Position numbers and translations under genes: made by a program. This document shows positions 39,719 to 46,098 of a stretch of 64,000 nucleotides of DNA, piece after piece. The DNA comes from Paraburkholderia flava (GTDB lineage: Bacteria > Pseudomonadota > Gammaproteobacteria > Burkholderiales > Burkholderiaceae). The notes under the pieces are model-generated. The model did not search any database, was not told the DNA's origin, and saw nothing but the letters and a program-made list of their open reading frames with translations. Location: assembly GCF_004359985.1 (NCBI RefSeq), contig NZ_SMRO01000001.1, forward strand, positions 2,332,193-2,396,192, written 5' to 3'. Each line of letters begins with the position of its first letter. Position 1 is the stretch's first letter.

Positions 39719-39890
39719 GAGCGGTGACGAGAGGGCTGCGAGAAATGATGCACGCCCATCATAAGCAGCCCTCGACCGTTTGCGCGACCACGTACGCGAG
39801 AAACGAACCGCATTCAGCACGGCGGGTACTTTAGGGCCTCACGCAGGCCATTGCGGTGAATCGTGTTAACCCCCGAACGACACAACGCAT

Positions 39891-40165
39891 TCAAACCCCG
39901 CGTTCCACACGAAACCGCGTCTCCGGCATGCCGATATAGACGAGTAACGACACTGCTGCCCAGATCGTCACGTGCCAGCAGAACCACGACCGGTGTCGAT
40001 CCGCTTTCATACGCAGCGCGACGAACTCGGTCGTGCCACCAAGGATTGCTGTCGTCAGCGCATAGGGCAGGCCGACCGCGAGCGCACGGATCCGCACGGG
40101 AAACAGCTCGGTTTTCGCGAGCATGTGCACCGACGTGATTGTCGCCGCGCTGCAGACGTCGAATA
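39891..40165 (-). pseudogene. C-terminal remnant of a metabolite:H+ symporter (MFS)
   Basis: The frame reads HMLAKTELFPVRIRALAVG, LPYALTTAILGGTTEFVAL and SWFCWHVTIWAAVSLLVYIG, then stop. These are the last two or three helices of a KgtP/ShiA-type (MHS family) transporter with the typical ELFPxRIRALxVGLPYA loop. The remaining ten helices are absent. Just upstream on the same strand another frame ends at 40177 with WTGVGWANFAMNPDL, an unidentified tail. The area looks like a scar of gene loss. Confidence 0.8.
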
Positions 40166-40237
40166 CCGCGTTCGTTTTACAGGTCGGGGTTCATCGCGAA
40201 ATTCGCCCAACCGACGCCGGTCCAGCAACCAAACCGA

Positions 40238-40254
40238 TGCTTCTTTAGAAAGCA
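40238..40254. promoter_or_regulatory. Imperfect dyad upstream of the encapsulin operon
   Basis: TGCTTCTTTAGAAAGCA: five matched outer pairs around a 7-base centre, 134 bases before the rhodanese start, in the AT-richer promoter area. Candidate operator for the operon's own XRE regulator or a sulfur regulator; speculative. Confidence 0.3.
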
Positions 40255-40387
40255 CAATTTATTGGTTCGCCTTCCGTTCGCGCTCTTTCATAGTGTGTCG
40301 TGATGGCTATAGGCGGTTTTGTCCGCCTCGCCAGCATCCGCTGCGCTTCCTCATTGCAAGCGCGCGGTCACTCGGCAAGGAGACGTC

Positions 40388-40855
40388 ATGACGGTTGAAC
40401 TCGAAGAACGGCCCGCGCACACGCTGCTCGAATCGGTGCGATCGGCTGCGGTGCAGGCAGGGTTGCCCTACGCGGGCGGGATCGCGCCACGCGATGCGTG
40501 GGCGCTGGTATCGGCGGGAGACGCGCTGCTGGTCGACGTGCGCACCGCAGAGGAACGCAAGTTCGTCGGCCAGGTGCCGGACAGTCTGCATGTCGCGTGG
40601 GCGACGGGCACGAGCCTGACGCGCAATCCGCGCTTCGTCCGCGAACTCGAAGCGAAGACCGGCAAGGACGCAGTCGTGCTGCTGCTGTGCCGTAGCGGCA
40701 ACCGCTCGGCGCAGGCTGCCGAGGCTGCGACGAAAGCGGGCTTCACGCAGGTCTTCAACGTACTCGAAGGCTTCGAGGGCGATCTCGATGCCGCGCAGCG
40801 ACGCGGGACGAATAACGGCTGGCGCTTTCACGGGTTGCCGTGGGTGCAGGACTGA
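40388..40855 (+). CDS. Rhodanese-domain protein of the encapsulin operon
   Basis: 155 aa, ATG 40388 with aaggaga at 40376. One rhodanese domain: DALLVDVRTAEERKFVGQVP and active-site loop VLLLCRSGNRSAQAAEAAT, with Cys101 as persulfide carrier in the CRSGxRS form. C-terminal VFNVLEGFEGDLDAAQRRG then NNGWRFHGLPW is typical of the single-domain group next to sulfur genes. Rhodaneses are recurrent neighbours of family 2A encapsulins. It could move sulfane sulfur to or from the compartment. Cytosolic. Confidence 0.92.
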   Translation: MTVELEERPAHTLLESVRSAAVQAGLPYAGGIAPRDAWALVSAGDALLVDVRTAEERKFVGQVPDSLHVAWATGTSLTRNPRFVRELEAKTGKDAVVLLLCRSGNRSAQAAEAATKAGFTQVFNVLEGFEGDLDAAQRRGTNNGWRFHGLPWVQD

Positions 40856-40902
40856 CGGATACCGCGCTGTCGCGCATCACACACTTTTAGCCGGGGGCCG
40901 CT

Positions 40903-41868
40903 GTGGCAGTTTTCGATATCGACGACATCGTGGAAGCACTGCAGACGGCTCGCCAGCGATGGCGCGAAGTACAGCGCCGCTCGCTCGAACCGGGCGGCCG
41001 CGAATTGCCGGCGCGCGAGGCGCTTGCAGACATCGTCGATACGCTGAAGGGCGTGCTGTTTCCGATGCGGCTCGGGCCGGCCGATCTGCGCCAGGAAAGC
41101 GAAAATTTCTACGTCGGGCATGCGCTCGATTCCGCGTTGCATGCGCTGCTCGCGCAGGCGCGGCTCGAACTGCATTACCGGACGCGTCATCAGCCGCGCT
41201 CCACCGACGACATCGAAGCTCAATCCGGTTCGGCAGTGCGCGCGTTCGCCGCGAAGCTGCCGGAGATCCGCGCGCTGCTCGACAGCGATGTGCTCGCTGC
41301 TTTCCACGGCGACCCCGCGGCGGGCAGCGTCGATGAAGTGCTGCTGTGCTATCCCGGCGTACTCGCGATGATCCACCATCGTTTCGCCCACGAGCTGTAT
41401 CGACTCGGCCTGCCGCTGCTCGCGCGCATCGTCGCGGAGCAGGCGCACGCGGAAACCGGCATCGACATTCATCCGGGTGCGCAGATCGGCGCGAGCTTCT
41501 TCATCGATCACGGGACCGGCGTGGTGATCGGCGAGACGTCGGTGATCGGGCAGCGGGTGCGCGTTTATCAGGCAGTGACGCTCGGGGCAAAACGCTTTCC
41601 GCGCGACGCGCAGGGACACCTCGAAAAAGGTTTGCCGCGCCATCCGATCGTCGAGGACGACGTCGTGATCTACGCGGGCGCGACGATTCTCGGTCGCGTG
41701 ACGCTGGGGCGCGGGTCGGTGATCGGTGGGAACGTGTGGCTTACGCAGGACGTCGCGCCGGGTTCGCACGTGACGCAGGCCGTGTCGCGTAACGAAGCGA
41801 CGGGGGCTGGCGCAGCGCACGCTACAAGCCCGGCTGTCGATGCAGCGATAGCCGGAGTCGCATCGTGA
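40903..41868 (+). CDS. epsC: Serine O-acetyltransferase (EpsC/SrpH type)
   Basis: 321 aa from GTG 40903, 47 bases after the rhodanese gene. The N-terminal helical domain (about 1-180) is followed by a left-handed beta-helix: GIDIHPGAQIGASFFIDHGT, GVVIGETSVIGQRVRVYQAV and TLGAKRFPRDAQGH. The DHGTGVVIGET catalytic His pattern is that of serine acetyltransferases. It makes O-acetylserine for cysteine synthesis. In cyanobacteria the SrpH homologue sits beside the SrpI encapsulin; the same link is kept here. Longer than E. coli CysE (273 aa). Confidence 0.93.
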   Translation: MAVFDIDDIVEALQTARQRWREVQRRSLEPGGRELPAREALADIVDTLKGVLFPMRLGPADLRQESENFYVGHALDSALHALLAQARLELHYRTRHQPRSTDDIEAQSGSAVRAFAAKLPEIRALLDSDVLAAFHGDPAAGSVDEVLLCYPGVLAMIHHRFAHELYRLGLPLLARIVAEQAHAETGIDIHPGAQIGASFFIDHGTGVVIGETSVIGQRVRVYQAVTLGAKRFPRDAQGHLEKGLPRHPIVEDDVVIYAGATILGRVTLGRGSVIGGNVWLTQDVAPGSHVTQAVSRNEATGAGAAHATSPAVDAAIAGVAS

Positions 41869-42185
41869 CGATGATCGTGCGCGACCTCGGCGTCACCGTG
41901 CGGCGTCTGCGCGAGGCGCGCGGCTGGTCGCAAGAACAGCTCGCCGAGCATGCGGCGTTGAACCGCTCGTATGTCGGCGAGATCGAGCGGGGTTCGGTCA
42001 TCGCATCCGTCGTGACCGTCGAGAAACTGGCACGCGCACTCGACGCGAGCATCGCCGCGCTGCTGTGTACTGCGCCCTCGGTTGCTTCGGACGACACGAT
42101 CGCTGCCGCAGCGTCGCCGCTCTCCGTCGAAGCAGCGGCTTCGTCCGCACCCGCCATCGCGACAACACAAAACGTACCGGCTTGA
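41865..42185 (+). CDS. XRE-family HTH regulator in the encapsulin operon
   Basis: 106 aa. GTG 41865 overlaps the epsC stop by 4 bases (GTGA); ATG 41871 is a possible alternative. HTH_3 domain: VTVRRLREARGWSQEQLAEH then AALNRSYVGEIERGSVIASV. The C-terminal 40 residues are Ala/Ser/Pro-rich and look disordered. It is the only regulator within the operon and so is the likely autogenous controller of the sulfur compartment genes. Small XRE proteins of this type resemble those in sulfur-responsive loci, but the signal is unknown. Confidence 0.88.
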   Translation: MTMIVRDLGVTVRRLREARGWSQEQLAEHAALNRSYVGEIERGSVIASVVTVEKLARALDASIAALLCTAPSVASDDTIAAAASPLSVEAAASSAPAIATTQNVPA

Positions 42186-42281
42186 CGTCTATAGCATGTT
42201 GAGCGGCTGCCATGCCGTTTCGATAATGACGCTCGCGAATAAGCTTTCCCGTTTTTCTTCTATCGACACCCGGAGCGACAC

Positions 42282-43214
42282 ATGACAGCGACAGTGGGCG
42301 GCCTGACGGCGCTCGGCGATACCGCAGCACGGCAACTAGCCAATGCCACCAAAACCGTTCCCCAGCTTTCGACGATCACGCCGCGCTGGCTCACGCATCT
42401 GCTGCAATGGCTGCCGGTCGAAGCGGGCATCTATCGTCTGAACCAGGTGAAGAATCCGGAAGCCGTCGTCGCGGCCTGCACCGCGCGCGAAGACGAAAGC
42501 CTGTTGCCGCGCACGTTCGTGCCGTACGAAGAAGAGCCGCGCGAATATTTTCTGAATGCAGTGAGCACGGTGCTCGACGTGCACACGCGCATCTCCGATC
42601 TGTACAGCAGCCCGCACGACCAGATCAAGGAACAGTTGCGTCTCACGATCGAAACGATCAAAGAGCTGCAGGAAAGCCAGTTGATCAACAACCCCGACTA
42701 CGGTCTGCTCGCGAACGTCGCCGAAGAGCAGCGCGTGTTTCCGCTGACGGGCGCGCCGACACCGGACGATCTCGACGAACTGCTCACGAAGGTCTGGAAA
42801 GAGCCGGCGTTCTTCCTCACGCATCCGCTCGCGATCGCCGCGTTCGGCCGCGAATGCACGCGCCGTGGCGTGCCGCCGCCGACGACCAGCCTGTTCGGTT
42901 CGCAGTTCCTCACGTGGCGCGGCATTCCGCTGATCCCGTCGGACAAGGTGCCGGTCGCGGATGGCAAGACGAAGATCCTGTTGCTGCGTGTCGGCGACAA
43001 GCGTCAGGGTGTCGTCGGTTTGTTCCAGCCGGGTGTTGCCGGCGAGCAGGGGCCGGGTCTGTCGGTGCGCTTCATGGGCATCAACAATCATGCGATCGCG
43101 TCGTATCTGATCTCGTTGTACTGCTCGCTCGCCGTGCATTCGCCGGACGCGCTCGCGGTTCTCGATGACGTGGAGATCGGCAAGTACCATGACTACCCAG
43201 ACACCTACAAGTAA
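42282..43214 (+). CDS. Family 2A encapsulin shell protein (SrpI-like)
   Basis: 310 aa, ATG 42282 with ggag 9-12 bases upstream. The whole sequence has the HK97-fold family 2A pattern: N-arm LGDTAARQLANATKTVPQLS then TITPRWLTHLLQWLPVEAGI and YRLNQV, later FGRECTRRGVPPPTTSLFGS, WRGIPLIPSDKVPV, VGLFQPGVAGEQGPGLSVRF and MGINNHAIASYLISLYCSLA. No transmembrane segment or signal, so a cytosolic icosahedral shell is expected. In studied examples (Synechococcus SrpI, Acinetobacter) it encloses a cysteine desulfurase. The cargo gene follows with a 26-base overlap, so shell and cargo are probably made together. Confidence 0.93.
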   Translation: MTATVGGLTALGDTAARQLANATKTVPQLSTITPRWLTHLLQWLPVEAGIYRLNQVKNPEAVVAACTAREDESLLPRTFVPYEEEPREYFLNAVSTVLDVHTRISDLYSSPHDQIKEQLRLTIETIKELQESQLINNPDYGLLANVAEEQRVFPLTGAPTPDDLDELLTKVWKEPAFFLTHPLAIAAFGRECTRRGVPPPTTSLFGSQFLTWRGIPLIPSDKVPVADGKTKILLLRVGDKRQGVVGLFQPGVAGEQGPGLSVRFMGINNHAIASYLISLYCSLAVHSPDALAVLDDVEIGKYHDYPDTYK

Positions 43215-45207
43215 GCCCATGGACCGCGCTCTGCCTCTGGACGTCCCTGCCGGGCCGCCGCCGGGTTTGCCCGATCCTGCGTTGCTTGCGCAGTTGGCGA
43301 ATGCATTTTTCGCCGCTGTGCAGGGCGAAGCGGCGCCGGTCGCACGTAGCGGTGCCGCGACGGGCGTGCCGGATACTGCAGGCGCGTTGCCGTTCGCGGC
43401 ACCGGTGCTCGCAGAAGCGGGCAATCCGGCGCCCGCCGGTTCACCGCTCGCGGGTCCGGGCGGCACGGGCACCGGTGTGCCCGGTGCCGCGCTTCCGCAG
43501 GGCCAGGTGGCGGGTGCCAATCTGCTGCCGTCGGCGCCGACTCATGTTTTGTCGCTCGCCCCTCGCGCCCCGTCGCTTGCTCCGCATGCGGTTGCGCAGA
43601 ATGGTTTGCCCGATAACGTTGTGACGGTTGCGCCTGCGCTCGATCCGCGTTTTGGCGGGGCGGCGCTGGGTGTGCCTCAAGGTTCTCAAGGTCCGGGTGA
43701 GTCTGCGCGCGGTGCCGCTGTGTCGTCGCCGTATTACTTTCTCGATGGTGCAGCCGGTCGCCAGTCCGTTACCGGTGCGGCACCGGACATTGTCGTGCCG
43801 GGGTGGACCGAAGTGACTGCGCAGTCGTTCGGTTTGCCGGGCGTCGACGAACCGTTGTCCGCATCGCGTTTTCCGTACGATGCGCCGGCTGCGGGTGCAT
43901 CGACGAGCGGCGACGCTTCGCGCTACTTCATCGACGACGCTGCGAACGCAGGCGACGAAGTGCCGTTAGCGGGTACGTCGGGCCATCCGCCATTCGACGT
44001 CAACGCGATTCGCCGCGATTTTCCGATCCTGCAGGAGCGCGTCAACGGACGTCAGCTGGTGTGGTTCGACAACGCCGCGACGACGCACAAGCCACAATCG
44101 GTGATCGACCGGCTCGCGTATTTCTACGCACACGAGAACTCGAACATTCACCGCGCGGCGCACGCGCTCGCCGGTCGCGCGACCGATGCGTACGAGGCGG
44201 CGCGCAGCAAGGTGCAGCGCTTTATCGGTGCATCGTCGCCTGATGAGATCGTGTTCGTGCGCGGCACCACCGAGGCGATCAACCTGATCGCGAAGACGTG
44301 GGGCGTGAAGAACGTCGGCGTGGGCGATGAGATCGTCGTGTCGCATCTCGAGCATCACGCGAACATCGTGCCGTGGCAGCAGCTCGCCGCGCAAACCGGC
44401 GCGACGCTGCGCGTGATTCCCGTCGACGATACGGGCCAGGTGCGGCTCGACGAATACCGTCGGTTGCTTAACGACCGCACGAAGATCGTGTCGGTTACGC
44501 AGGTATCGAATGCGCTCGGCACCGTCGTGCCGGTGAAGGAAATCGTCGAACTCGCGCATCGCGCGGGTGCGAAGGCGCTGGTCGACGGTGCGCAGTCGGT
44601 GTCGCACATGCGCGTCGATGTGCAGGCGCTCGATGCGGACTTCTTCGTGTTCTCGGGTCACAAGGTGTTCGGGCCGACCGGCATCGGCGTCGTGTACGGC
44701 AAGCGCGCGCTGCTCGACGACATGCCGCCGTGGCAGGGCGGCGGCAACATGATCGCCGACGTGACCTTCGAGCGCACCGTGTTCCAGCCGGCGCCGGCGC
44801 GTTTCGAAGCGGGCACCGGCAACATCGCGGACGCGGTGGGACTCGGCGCGGCAATCGACTACGTGACGCGCGTGGGCATCGAGAACATCGCGCGCTACGA
44901 ACACGACCTGCTCGCGTACGCGACGGGCGTGCTGCAACCGGTGCCCGGCGTGCGGCTGATCGGCACCGCGCGGGACAAGGCGAGCGTGCTGTCGTTCGTG
45001 CTGAAGGGCTACGAGACCGAAGAGGTCGGACGTGCGTTGAACGAAGAGGGCATTGCGGTGCGCTCGGGTCATCACTGCGCACAACCGATCTTGCGACGCT
45101 TCGGCGTCGAGGCAACCGTGCGGCCGTCGCTTGCGTTCTACAACACGTGCGACGAAGTGGACCGGATGGTGGCGGTTGTCAAGCGGCTGGCGTCGCGGCG
45201 GGTTTGA
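43189..45207 (+). CDS. Cysteine desulfurase cargo with long N-terminal encapsulation domain
   Basis: 672 aa from ATG 43189 (ggaga at 43172); an ATG at 43219 just after the shell stop is the alternative. Residues 1-268 are Ala/Pro/Gly-rich and probably disordered, with a helix-like PALLAQLANAFFAA (30-43) and two related motifs, PYYFLDGAAG (about 181-190) and SRYFIDDAAN (about 244-253). Residues 269-672 are a SufS-type desulfurase: FDNAATTHKPQSVIDRL, SHLEHHANIVPWQQ, PLP-Lys492 in FSGHKVFGPTG and nucleophile Cys630 in RSGHHCAQP. It converts cysteine to alanine plus persulfide inside the shell. Confidence 0.95.
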   Translation: MTTQTPTSKPMDRALPLDVPAGPPPGLPDPALLAQLANAFFAAVQGEAAPVARSGAATGVPDTAGALPFAAPVLAEAGNPAPAGSPLAGPGGTGTGVPGAALPQGQVAGANLLPSAPTHVLSLAPRAPSLAPHAVAQNGLPDNVVTVAPALDPRFGGAALGVPQGSQGPGESARGAAVSSPYYFLDGAAGRQSVTGAAPDIVVPGWTEVTAQSFGLPGVDEPLSASRFPYDAPAAGASTSGDASRYFIDDAANAGDEVPLAGTSGHPPFDVNAIRRDFPILQERVNGRQLVWFDNAATTHKPQSVIDRLAYFYAHENSNIHRAAHALAGRATDAYEAARSKVQRFIGASSPDEIVFVRGTTEAINLIAKTWGVKNVGVGDEIVVSHLEHHANIVPWQQLAAQTGATLRVIPVDDTGQVRLDEYRRLLNDRTKIVSVTQVSNALGTVVPVKEIVELAHRAGAKALVDGAQSVSHMRVDVQALDADFFVFSGHKVFGPTGIGVVYGKRALLDDMPPWQGGGNMIADVTFERTVFQPAPARFEAGTGNIADAVGLGAAIDYVTRVGIENIARYEHDLLAYATGVLQPVPGVRLIGTARDKASVLSFVLKGYETEEVGRALNEEGIAVRSGHHCAQPILRRFGVEATVRPSLAFYNTCDEVDRMVAVVKRLASRRV

Positions 45208-45239
45208 TACCGCGTTTGTAGCGAGCGTTGCGCAACATG

Positions 45240-45282
45240 CGCCGTACAGACTGATCGAGGTCGGTCTGTACGGCGTTTCTTA
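45240..45282 (+). terminator. Terminator of the encapsulin operon
   Basis: CGCCGTACAGAC (45240-45251), 12-base loop, GTCTGTACGGCG (45264-45275), then TTTCTTATT: a 12-bp perfect stem 32 bases past the desulfurase stop. Confidence 0.88.
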
Positions 45283-46098
45283 TTGAGCCGTTTCGTGCGT
45301 GACGTCTTGCGTTTCATCCGACGCATGAGCCGCAAAATACCGCGTCGGCGTCACGCCGAACATACGGCGAAACATCGCGATGAACGCACTGACGTTGTCG
45401 TAGCCGAGATCGATCGCGATACGCGTAACCGGTGTGTCGGCCGCGAGCATTTCTAGCGCGCGCATCAGACGCGCGCGTTGCCGCCACTCGGTGAAACTGA
45501 AACCCGTCTCGACGACGAAGCGCCGCGACAGCGTGCGCGGTGCAATCGCGGCCCAGTCGGCCCATGCTTCGAGGCGACGATTGTCCGCGAGATCATCGGC
45601 CAATGCCTGCGCGATGCGCAGCAGGCGTGCATCGCGTGGCAGCGGCAAGCCGAACGGTTCGCGCGGCAACGCACGGATCTCGTCGACGATCACGCCGGCG
45701 ATGCGTTGCTGTGCGTCGTCGAGCGGTGCATCGTGCCAGGTAGCCGCGCGTGCGATCGCCGTGCGCAGCAACGCGGACATCGCGAGCGTGCATGGCTCGT
45801 CAGGCAACGTCGCGCATGCGTCAGTGGCGACGTACACGCTCCATCCGGAGAACGGACCATGCGAGCGGACCGAGTGCGATGCGTCGGGCGGAATCCACAC
45901 TGCGTGCGTGGCGGGCACGACCCATTGACTGTGTTTGGTGCCGACCGACAGCAGCCCCGTCACCGTGCCGAACAGCTGGCCGCGCGCATGGCGATGTGCG
46001 TCGGTTACGCGCGTGTCGTCGCTGGTCAGCTCGACGGCGTGCAGAAGCGGACCGTCGGCTGCGTGAAGTTTCGCTAGCGGAAGCAGAGGCGTGGGCAT
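45280..46098 (-). CDS. AraC-family regulator with N-terminal cupin
   Basis: 272 aa, ATG at complement 46096-46098. Cupin-type sensor (DAHRHARGQLFGTVTGLLSV, WVVPATHAVWIPPDASHSVR) and two C-terminal HTHs (WADWAAIAPRTLSRRFVVET, VTRIAIDLGYDNVSAFIAMF) ending in the family motif GVTPTRYF. Divergent from a small unknown gene at 46210, which it may control. The opposite-strand neighbour is the encapsulin operon, separated by that operon's terminator, so a link is not implied. Confidence 0.9.
   Translation of the reverse strand: MPTPLLPLAKLHAADGPLLHAVELTSDDTRVTDAHRHARGQLFGTVTGLLSVGTKHSQWVVPATHAVWIPPDASHSVRSHGPFSGWSVYVATDACATLPDEPCTLAMSALLRTAIARAATWHDAPLDDAQQRIAGVIVDEIRALPREPFGLPLPRDARLLRIAQALADDLADNRRLEAWADWAAIAPRTLSRRFVVETGFSFTEWRQRARLMRALEMLAADTPVTRIAIDLGYDNVSAFIAMFRRMFGVTPTRYFAAHASDETQDVTHETAQ

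Follow-up and report, generated by a model that had tools for sequence, protein, structure and literature searches.

What a small DNA-binding protein of the XRE family does in the middle of an encapsulin operon is the question raised by positions 40388 to 45207 of a 64,000-nucleotide stretch of Paraburkholderia flava DNA (the window). The five-gene set found there is a complete family 2A encapsulin operon, in which five open reading frames (ORFs), all on the plus strand, encode a rhodanese, EpsC, XRE, the shell protein, and the cargo, in that order. The compartment itself is an ordinary encapsulin of an already-known type; the part that, judging from sequence, goes beyond the known family 2A system is a regulatory module consisting of XRE, two related operator-like sites (O1 and O2), and an internal promoter (P2); the first-pass annotation had noted neither the sites nor P2. 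We consider it most likely, with a probability of roughly 0.8, that XRE is the dedicated local regulator of this operon, acting at both of its promoters, P1 upstream of the rhodanese gene and P2 upstream of the shell gene, via operators centered on CTATAG.

The shell protein (42282..43214, plus strand; 310 amino acids) matches the family 2A model NF041162 with 520 bits (cutoff, 380) and PF19307 with an E value of 2.1e-100. The cargo (43189..45207, plus strand) is a SufS-type cysteine desulfurase with an N-terminal extension of ~272 residues and matches NF041166 with 946 bits (cutoff, 800) and the sufS subfamily with 563. Nearly full-length matches of the shell to the solved shells PDB 8t6r (2.7e-166), which we take to be from Acinetobacter baumannii, and 6x8m (SrpI; 3.8e-145) make an HK97 fold near certain. 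Assembly, cargo loading, and sulfur storage in P. flava may be expected by homology to relatives, and a 2024 paper reportedly describes sulfur storage by the A. baumannii-type family 2A compartment. The shell also reaches 408 bits with the family 2B model (cutoff, 400), but the best stretch spans just positions 206 to 449 of the 450 in that profile. PF19307 was the sole domain found on the shell in a Pfam search, which detected no cNMP-binding domain, the feature that marks family 2B shells according to passages of PMC8346489. The cargo contains the loading motifs LAQLANAFF (residue 33) and SPYYFLDG (residue 180), as well as RSGHHC at residue 625; the corresponding motifs of the Synechococcus elongatus cargo are given as LARLANEFFS and AASPYYFLDG in passages of PMC8049743. 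Six matches to the cargo model occur in the P. flava genome, of which the desulfurase at 43189..45207 alone reaches the cutoff.

The rhodanese-domain sulfurtransferase (40388..40855, plus strand; PF00581, 1.8e-13) has the active loop CRSGNRS at residue 101. The EpsC-type serine O-acetyltransferase (40903..41868, plus strand) barely clears the NF041874 cutoff (154.7 bits; cutoff, 150) and does not reach that of the cysE model (164.4 versus 210.65), and the motifs DIHPGA, IDHGTG, and RHP are all present. These EpsC motifs have catalytic roles, as do the active-site-type motifs of the rhodanese and the desulfurase. The first-pass annotation had called the operon family 2A, with a desulfurase as the cargo of the shell and serine acetyltransferase and rhodanese as accessories, and the profile matches bear it out, including those of NF041162 and PF19307 to 42282-43214, where it had looked for an encapsulin or HK97 profile match; passages of PMC8346489 likewise list rhodanese and serine acetyltransferase as the most enriched accessory genes of family 2A. 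Its gene order and its tight or overlapping one-strand junctions were also recovered. The epsC/xre junction is a four-base overlap (GTGA), and in 89 of 93 unselected loci, that is, loci not fetched for holding O2 (123 of 136 with site-chosen loci included), the xre start codon falls exactly within such a 4-nucleotide (nt) overlap at the epsC stop. Taking ATG 43189, the point at which the cargo profile sets in (residue 9 of the longer ORF), as the start of the cargo gives a 26-base overlap between the shell and cargo genes, and the same overlap was found in 54 of 56 genus operons with start codons chosen by script.

The intergenic regions of 56 full operons of the genus are mostly unalignable except for sharp blocks. 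Between xre and the shell gene, the alignment shows CTATAGCATGTTGA, then GATAAT 17 nt after a -35-like TTGAnn, and then a leader. By its sequence, this block is a sigma-70-like promoter, P2 (TTGAGC-17-GATAAT; 42199..42227, plus strand), predicted to serve shell and cargo. In an independent consensus scan, P2 was the sole plus-strand promoter-like match within 39850-45400, agreeing with the consensus at 9 of 12 positions. Across 92 unselected loci, the likeness to TATAAT is greatest with a 17-nt spacer (4.11 of 6, with at most 2.35 at the other spacings from 12 to 22), and the same peak reaches 3.89 over 132 loci, site-chosen ones included. The best spacer among 15 to 19 nt was 17 in 72 of the 92, 18 in 17, and 15 in 3. 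The operator-like site O2 (TTGACGTCTATAGCATGTTGA; 42182..42202, plus strand) is centered on CTATAG, is conserved in loci with XRE, and overlaps the -35 box of P2 just before the shell gene. If the P2 start is placed 7 nt past the -10, the center of O2 would fall near -42.5, and the site keeps an almost constant distance from the -10. Where an insert of ~0.6 to 1.3 kb separates xre from the shell gene (L161 and L251, the latter found by its site), O2 stays ~99 to 100 nt from the shell gene, so that its place appears to be set by the shell promoter and not by where xre ends. Just past the P2 start lies the conserved 5' leader, ATAAGC..TTCCCGTTTTTCTTCTAT (42237..42262, plus strand). By eye, a similar stretch precedes the second shell copies without XRE at L034, L062, L063, and L152; the leader therefore seems independent of XRE.

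The occurrence of O2 follows that of XRE. O2 was scored as the best match to TGATGGCTATAGCATGTTGA (20 positions) within 400 nt upstream of the shell gene in 171 loci holding both shell and epsC. XRE is present in 135 of these, and after 41 that had been fetched for holding the site were set aside, 94 unselected loci remained. At least 15 of 20 positions matched in 93 of the 94, versus scores of 13 or less in 35 of 36 loci without XRE; the remaining one, L196, scores 15 at a place 301 nt upstream and inside epsC. A scan with the pattern TGRTGGCTATAGCATGTTGA over genome contigs of 84,980 species, which may omit records very near the window's genome and shares some of its matching genomes with our other counts, returned 46 places, all but one of which lie in this operon. 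In these 45 stretches, the site lies behind xre and/or ~81 to 135 nt before a family 2A shell match, and 44 contain xre; two stretches (L220 and L235) stop short of the shell gene, and one (L232) starts after xre. The remaining match, L237, has none of the five genes in its stretch and is probably due to chance, the number of chance matches expected from the pattern and the collection size being ~1. A quick tree was built from 93 shells, 15 hand-picked from the 62 genus copies and 78 others; XRE and O2 states agree in 92 of its rows. Second family 2A copies consisting of shell and cargo, with no rhodanese, EpsC, XRE, or O2 nearby, occur at L033, L034, L062, L063, and L152, and each of these genomes also carries the full operon with XRE; O2 is thus missing from all five XRE-less second copies examined, the two-copy genomes G819 and G827 having been left out of this comparison.

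Within the P. flava genome, the O2 pattern at zero or one mismatch occurs at O2 and at one other place (L263, one mismatch), inside an unrelated ORF of 546+ residues that by eye reads as autotransporter-like; we take the L263 match as chance. At up to three mismatches, the O2 pattern has 62 places, and the reversed control has 155. No place in the genome other than O1 has fewer than two mismatches to the O1 pattern, which at up to three mismatches gives 68 places versus 66 for the control. On these counts, no wider regulon is visible in this genome.

Upstream of the rhodanese gene, the alignment of the 56 genus operons shows TTTAGAAA...ATTTATTGGTT, then CATAGT, and then TGATGGCTATAGACGG. CATAGT (40289..40294, plus strand) is a weakly supported -10-like hexamer of P1, conserved in the genus alignment. 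It is followed by the operator-like site O1 (TGATGGCTATAGGCGGTT; 40301..40318, plus strand); with CATAGT as the -10, the O1 center would fall near +9.5 of P1. The O1 palindrome TGNNGNCTATAGNCNNCA, derived from some of the sequences on which it was scored, matches at 10 or more of 12 positions in 85 of 92 unselected operons with XRE, 1 of 11 without XRE, and 0 of 136 same-size control windows from epsC coding sequence. Among pattern-selected operons with enough upstream DNA, 22 of 33 reach 10, and it is unrecognizable in, for example, Polaromonas (L219 and L230); O1 is therefore less universal than O2. A fair -10-like hexamer, where present (93 operons), ends 14 to 16 nt before the O1 center in 83 and 20 to 25 nt before it in 9, a variable distance that suits blocking at P1. 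TTGGTT, 21 nt from CATAGT, was dropped as the -35.

The conserved block TTTAGAAA-N5-ATTTATTGGTT (40244..40267, plus strand), which stands out as a footprint in the 56-operon alignment upstream of P1, is a possible activator site; as P1 has no good -35, an activator there is likely. The block is the only exact match in its own genome, where one other match has three mismatches, and by eye an ATTCGTT-like core is also found upstream of the rhodanese gene in some operons without XRE. An activator of the LysR/CysB type would be a guess. A CysB box was rejected: TTNATTSKTT is not on the coding strand of any of eight same-genome loci (2 of 3 sulfate-binding-protein matches and 6 of 15 SsuA-family matches) and occurs once on the other strand (L295), and we do not count as evidence a likeness by eye to the L290 promoter.

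XRE (41865..42185, plus strand; 106 amino acids), the proposed operon regulator, has only helix-turn-helix (HTH) domains in Pfam (PF13560, 6.6e-15; PF01381, 4e-13) and, by the same search, is the sole DNA-binding protein among the five operon genes. Pfam revealed no sensor or effector domain, and an alignment of 31 relatives revealed no invariant or nearly invariant cysteine. Residues N33, R34, Y36, G38, E39, E41, and R42 are kept in the aligned proteins, and we take N33 to R42 as the probable recognition-helix region. The idea that the tail is a conserved functional element was set aside, as the tail varies widely among relatives.

A profile search found the shell in 55 of 144 genomes of the genus, 110 of 398 in a sample of the family, 44 of 399 in a sample of the order, and 8 of 370 in a sample of the class; all four counts include the window's own genome, and those for the family, order, and class each include a single match under the curated cutoff. 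Every listed shell copy of the genus was examined (62, window included). XRE precedes the shell in 58 of them, one with a split xre (L068), and rhodanese, EpsC, and XRE all precede it in 57, L068 again included; XRE and EpsC are missing from four copies and rhodanese is missing from five. So recurrent a gene set greatly exceeds what chance would produce. The four without XRE are second copies composed of shell plus cargo, and their genomes hold the full operon too. At L068 (G143), xre is interrupted by an insert, O2 is intact (20/20), and a frame in the insert reads by eye as an IS5-type transposase. Beyond the genus, 88 genomes of the family have the shell, of which 32 were examined as 8-kb stretches and a few more as short loci; 29 short loci of the order (10 re-taken longer) plus 10 further stretches and 6 loci of the class were also examined, with G875:C425 and the subthreshold G1056 (order) and G299 (class) left out. 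Among these loci, XRE occurs in eight genera of the window's family, and two do not have it, g296 (seven genomes) and g285 (three of four genomes). Eight further families include genera with XRE, and five of these families also include genera without it. The initial description of an in-operon XRE gene as "less usual" thus fails for the genus, where it is standard, and holds for the order, across which XRE is patchy and missing from many other family 2A operons.

In the mechanism that we propose, the SrpI-like shell would hold the SufS-type cysteine desulfurase, EpsC would supply O-acetylserine for cysteine, and the rhodanese would likely serve as sulfur acceptor or carrier. We infer that XRE is the protein that binds O1 and O2. 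At O1, just downstream of the P1 start, it would block transcription of the whole operon, xre included. At O2, over the P2 -35 and centered near -42.5, a protein of the lambda cI kind could either turn on transcription of shell and cargo or occlude it. The nearly fixed position of O2 relative to the -10 is as expected for polymerase contact, and the TTGA that O2 shares with the -35 would fix it too. Because the O1 spacing varies while that of O2 is nearly fixed, repression at P1, which we regard as likely, and narrowly activation at P2, for which the chances are about even or slightly better, are the favored modes. Tentatively, and with the odds leaning against it, the module might be a controller-protein switch recruited to a protein organelle, in which XRE expressed from P1 would shut that promoter down through O1 and switch P2 on through O2; the enzymes of sulfur supply would then appear first, and shell and cargo would follow as a concentration-dependent burst. 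Such a switch would set the supply of shell and cargo apart from the metabolic genes without a sensor in the regulator. The restriction-modification controller (C) proteins C.AhdI, C.BclI, C.Csp231I, and C.Kpn2I are small XRE proteins that act on the promoters of their own operons, as is predicted for XRE; like them, XRE is short (106 amino acids) and consists of an HTH with no effector domain found. Unlike theirs, its neighborhood shows no such enzymes, as none of the nine genes scanned (37.6 to 46.1 kb) belongs to a restriction or methyltransferase family, and the CTATAG core of its predicted operator differs from C-boxes. PMC6237814 and PMC3115060 describe concentration-dependent activation and repression of restriction-modification genes by C proteins, with interference at the -35 and an elongation roadblock.

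Simple negative autoregulation, in which XRE represses both promoters until released by a cue and the operator over the -35 occludes P2, is a contender, though less likely than not. It accords with the overlap of O2 with the P2 -35, with O1 at the presumed P1 start site, and with P2 in the window being itself a fair promoter (9/12), but no inducer-binding domain that would release repression was found by Pfam and the distance of O1 from the best -10-like hexamer varies. Moreover, cI-like proteins classically activate from an operator centered near -42.5, with 17 to 18 nt to the -10. That O1 and O2 are promoter elements, or sites of another, global regulator with XRE merely traveling along, strikes us as unlikely. 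The right half of O2 does contain the -35, and xre and P2 sit together as a block from epsC to the shell gene, so that shared descent could explain their co-occurrence (at least three supported independent changes only); yet the core is found again at P1, at a distance of 1.9 kb and in another promoter context, near matches elsewhere in the genome are few, 45 of the 46 scan places fall in this operon, and XRE is the only DNA-binding protein that the operon encodes. A role of XRE outside operon transcription, for example as an antitoxin-like protein or a structural partner of the shell, is very improbable: its tight 4-nt coupling to epsC and a weak similarity to the Y4mF-type antitoxin model (TIGR03070, 37.8 bits; cutoff, 71.65) would fit, whereas no toxin family occurs among the nine genes scanned, the tails vary widely, and the DNA sites account better for the place of the gene.

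Several observations weigh against XRE as the dedicated regulator or against the modes of action favored above. One locus with XRE, L206, has a weak O2 (12/20) at the usual place. The right half of O2 is degenerate as a palindrome, so that part of its conservation may reflect constraint on the promoter -35. On the shell tree there are eight state changes, at least three of them forced by supported branches, which makes for few independent events; in an independent-pairs test with three pairs, O2 followed XRE in two and did not differ in one, which is not significant (sign test, p 0.5). At P1, the -10 is weak, mean TATAAT similarity has no clear peak over 107 operons, and the consensus promoter scan of 39850-45400 found no promoter there; the O1 palindrome, besides the partial circularity of its scoring, is unrecognizable in 7 of the 92 unselected and 11 of the 33 pattern-selected operons with XRE. 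The solved chains nearest to XRE are C.BclI and C.AhdI (2b5a and 1y7y, top PDB matches, E ~1e-9), but they top the matches partly as small HTH_3 proteins, and such an E value indicates likeness at the family level only. The lack of a sensor domain in Pfam also leaves unexplained the link to cysteine or sulfur status that had been suggested for XRE at the outset. According to PMC6237814, C.Kpn2I inhibits a promoter by hindering the contact of sigma with the -35, and P2 could equally be repressed in this way.

Relative to characterized systems, the shell of P. flava is homologous to SrpI of S. elongatus PCC 7942 (74% identity over 95% of the protein), and the cargoes share LARLANEFFS-like and YYFLDG motifs; the S. 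elongatus system described in passages of PMC8049743 differs in being plasmid-borne and upregulated under sulfate starvation. P. flava, unlike S. elongatus, has a local XRE with two predicted sites. A. baumannii shares the order rhodanese-epsC-shell-cargo (L301, one record of three), with a shell 81% identical, but L301 has neither xre nor an O2 before the shell gene, two 15/20 matches lying elsewhere on the other strand. The S. elongatus system is reportedly under CysR control, going by the title of a cited paper. A literature search of open-licence papers found no report of an XRE/two-site module. XRE is absent from the main text of PMC8346489, and a review covering both encapsulin and XRE treats them apart in the passages available to us. 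In the literature searched, sulfate starvation of a cyanobacterium is the sole expression cue found for desulfurase-type encapsulins. A regulator conserved within the operon, with two sites of defined position, would make it possible to act directly on expression and on how much shell is supplied relative to cargo. If our reading is correct, the Burkholderia-type compartment is set apart from those of S. elongatus, for which CysR is named in the cited title, and A. baumannii, where L301 has neither XRE nor the site.

Other variants of the locus were encountered. A contig binned as Moraxellaceae (L224) holds a version of the operon with XRE and O2, through either horizontal transfer or mis-binning. 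On plasmid p3 of Azospirillum brasilense (L303), a divergent, longer (600-bp) gene annotated as "XRE family transcriptional regulator" precedes a family 2A shell gene and is possibly an unrelated regulatory solution. A decayed family 2A shell copy with two internal stops in its reading frame is present at G770:C1:1506597-1507454.

At the edges of the P. flava operon, a remnant-like frame upstream of P1 (39990-40150, minus strand) resembles by eye the end of an MFS transporter; a Pfam search of its 53 residues gave no match. Of the one strong terminator first proposed, the structure stands, an intrinsic terminator-like hairpin with a 17-pair stem and a T-rich tail (45239..45276, plus strand) and convergent genes on either side, while the entire region 39850-45400 has no more terminator-like matches than shuffled sequence (2, against a shuffle mean of 4.9). 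The hairpin is abutted by the end of a convergent gene for an AraC-family regulator (45280-46098, minus strand) and may serve both genes.

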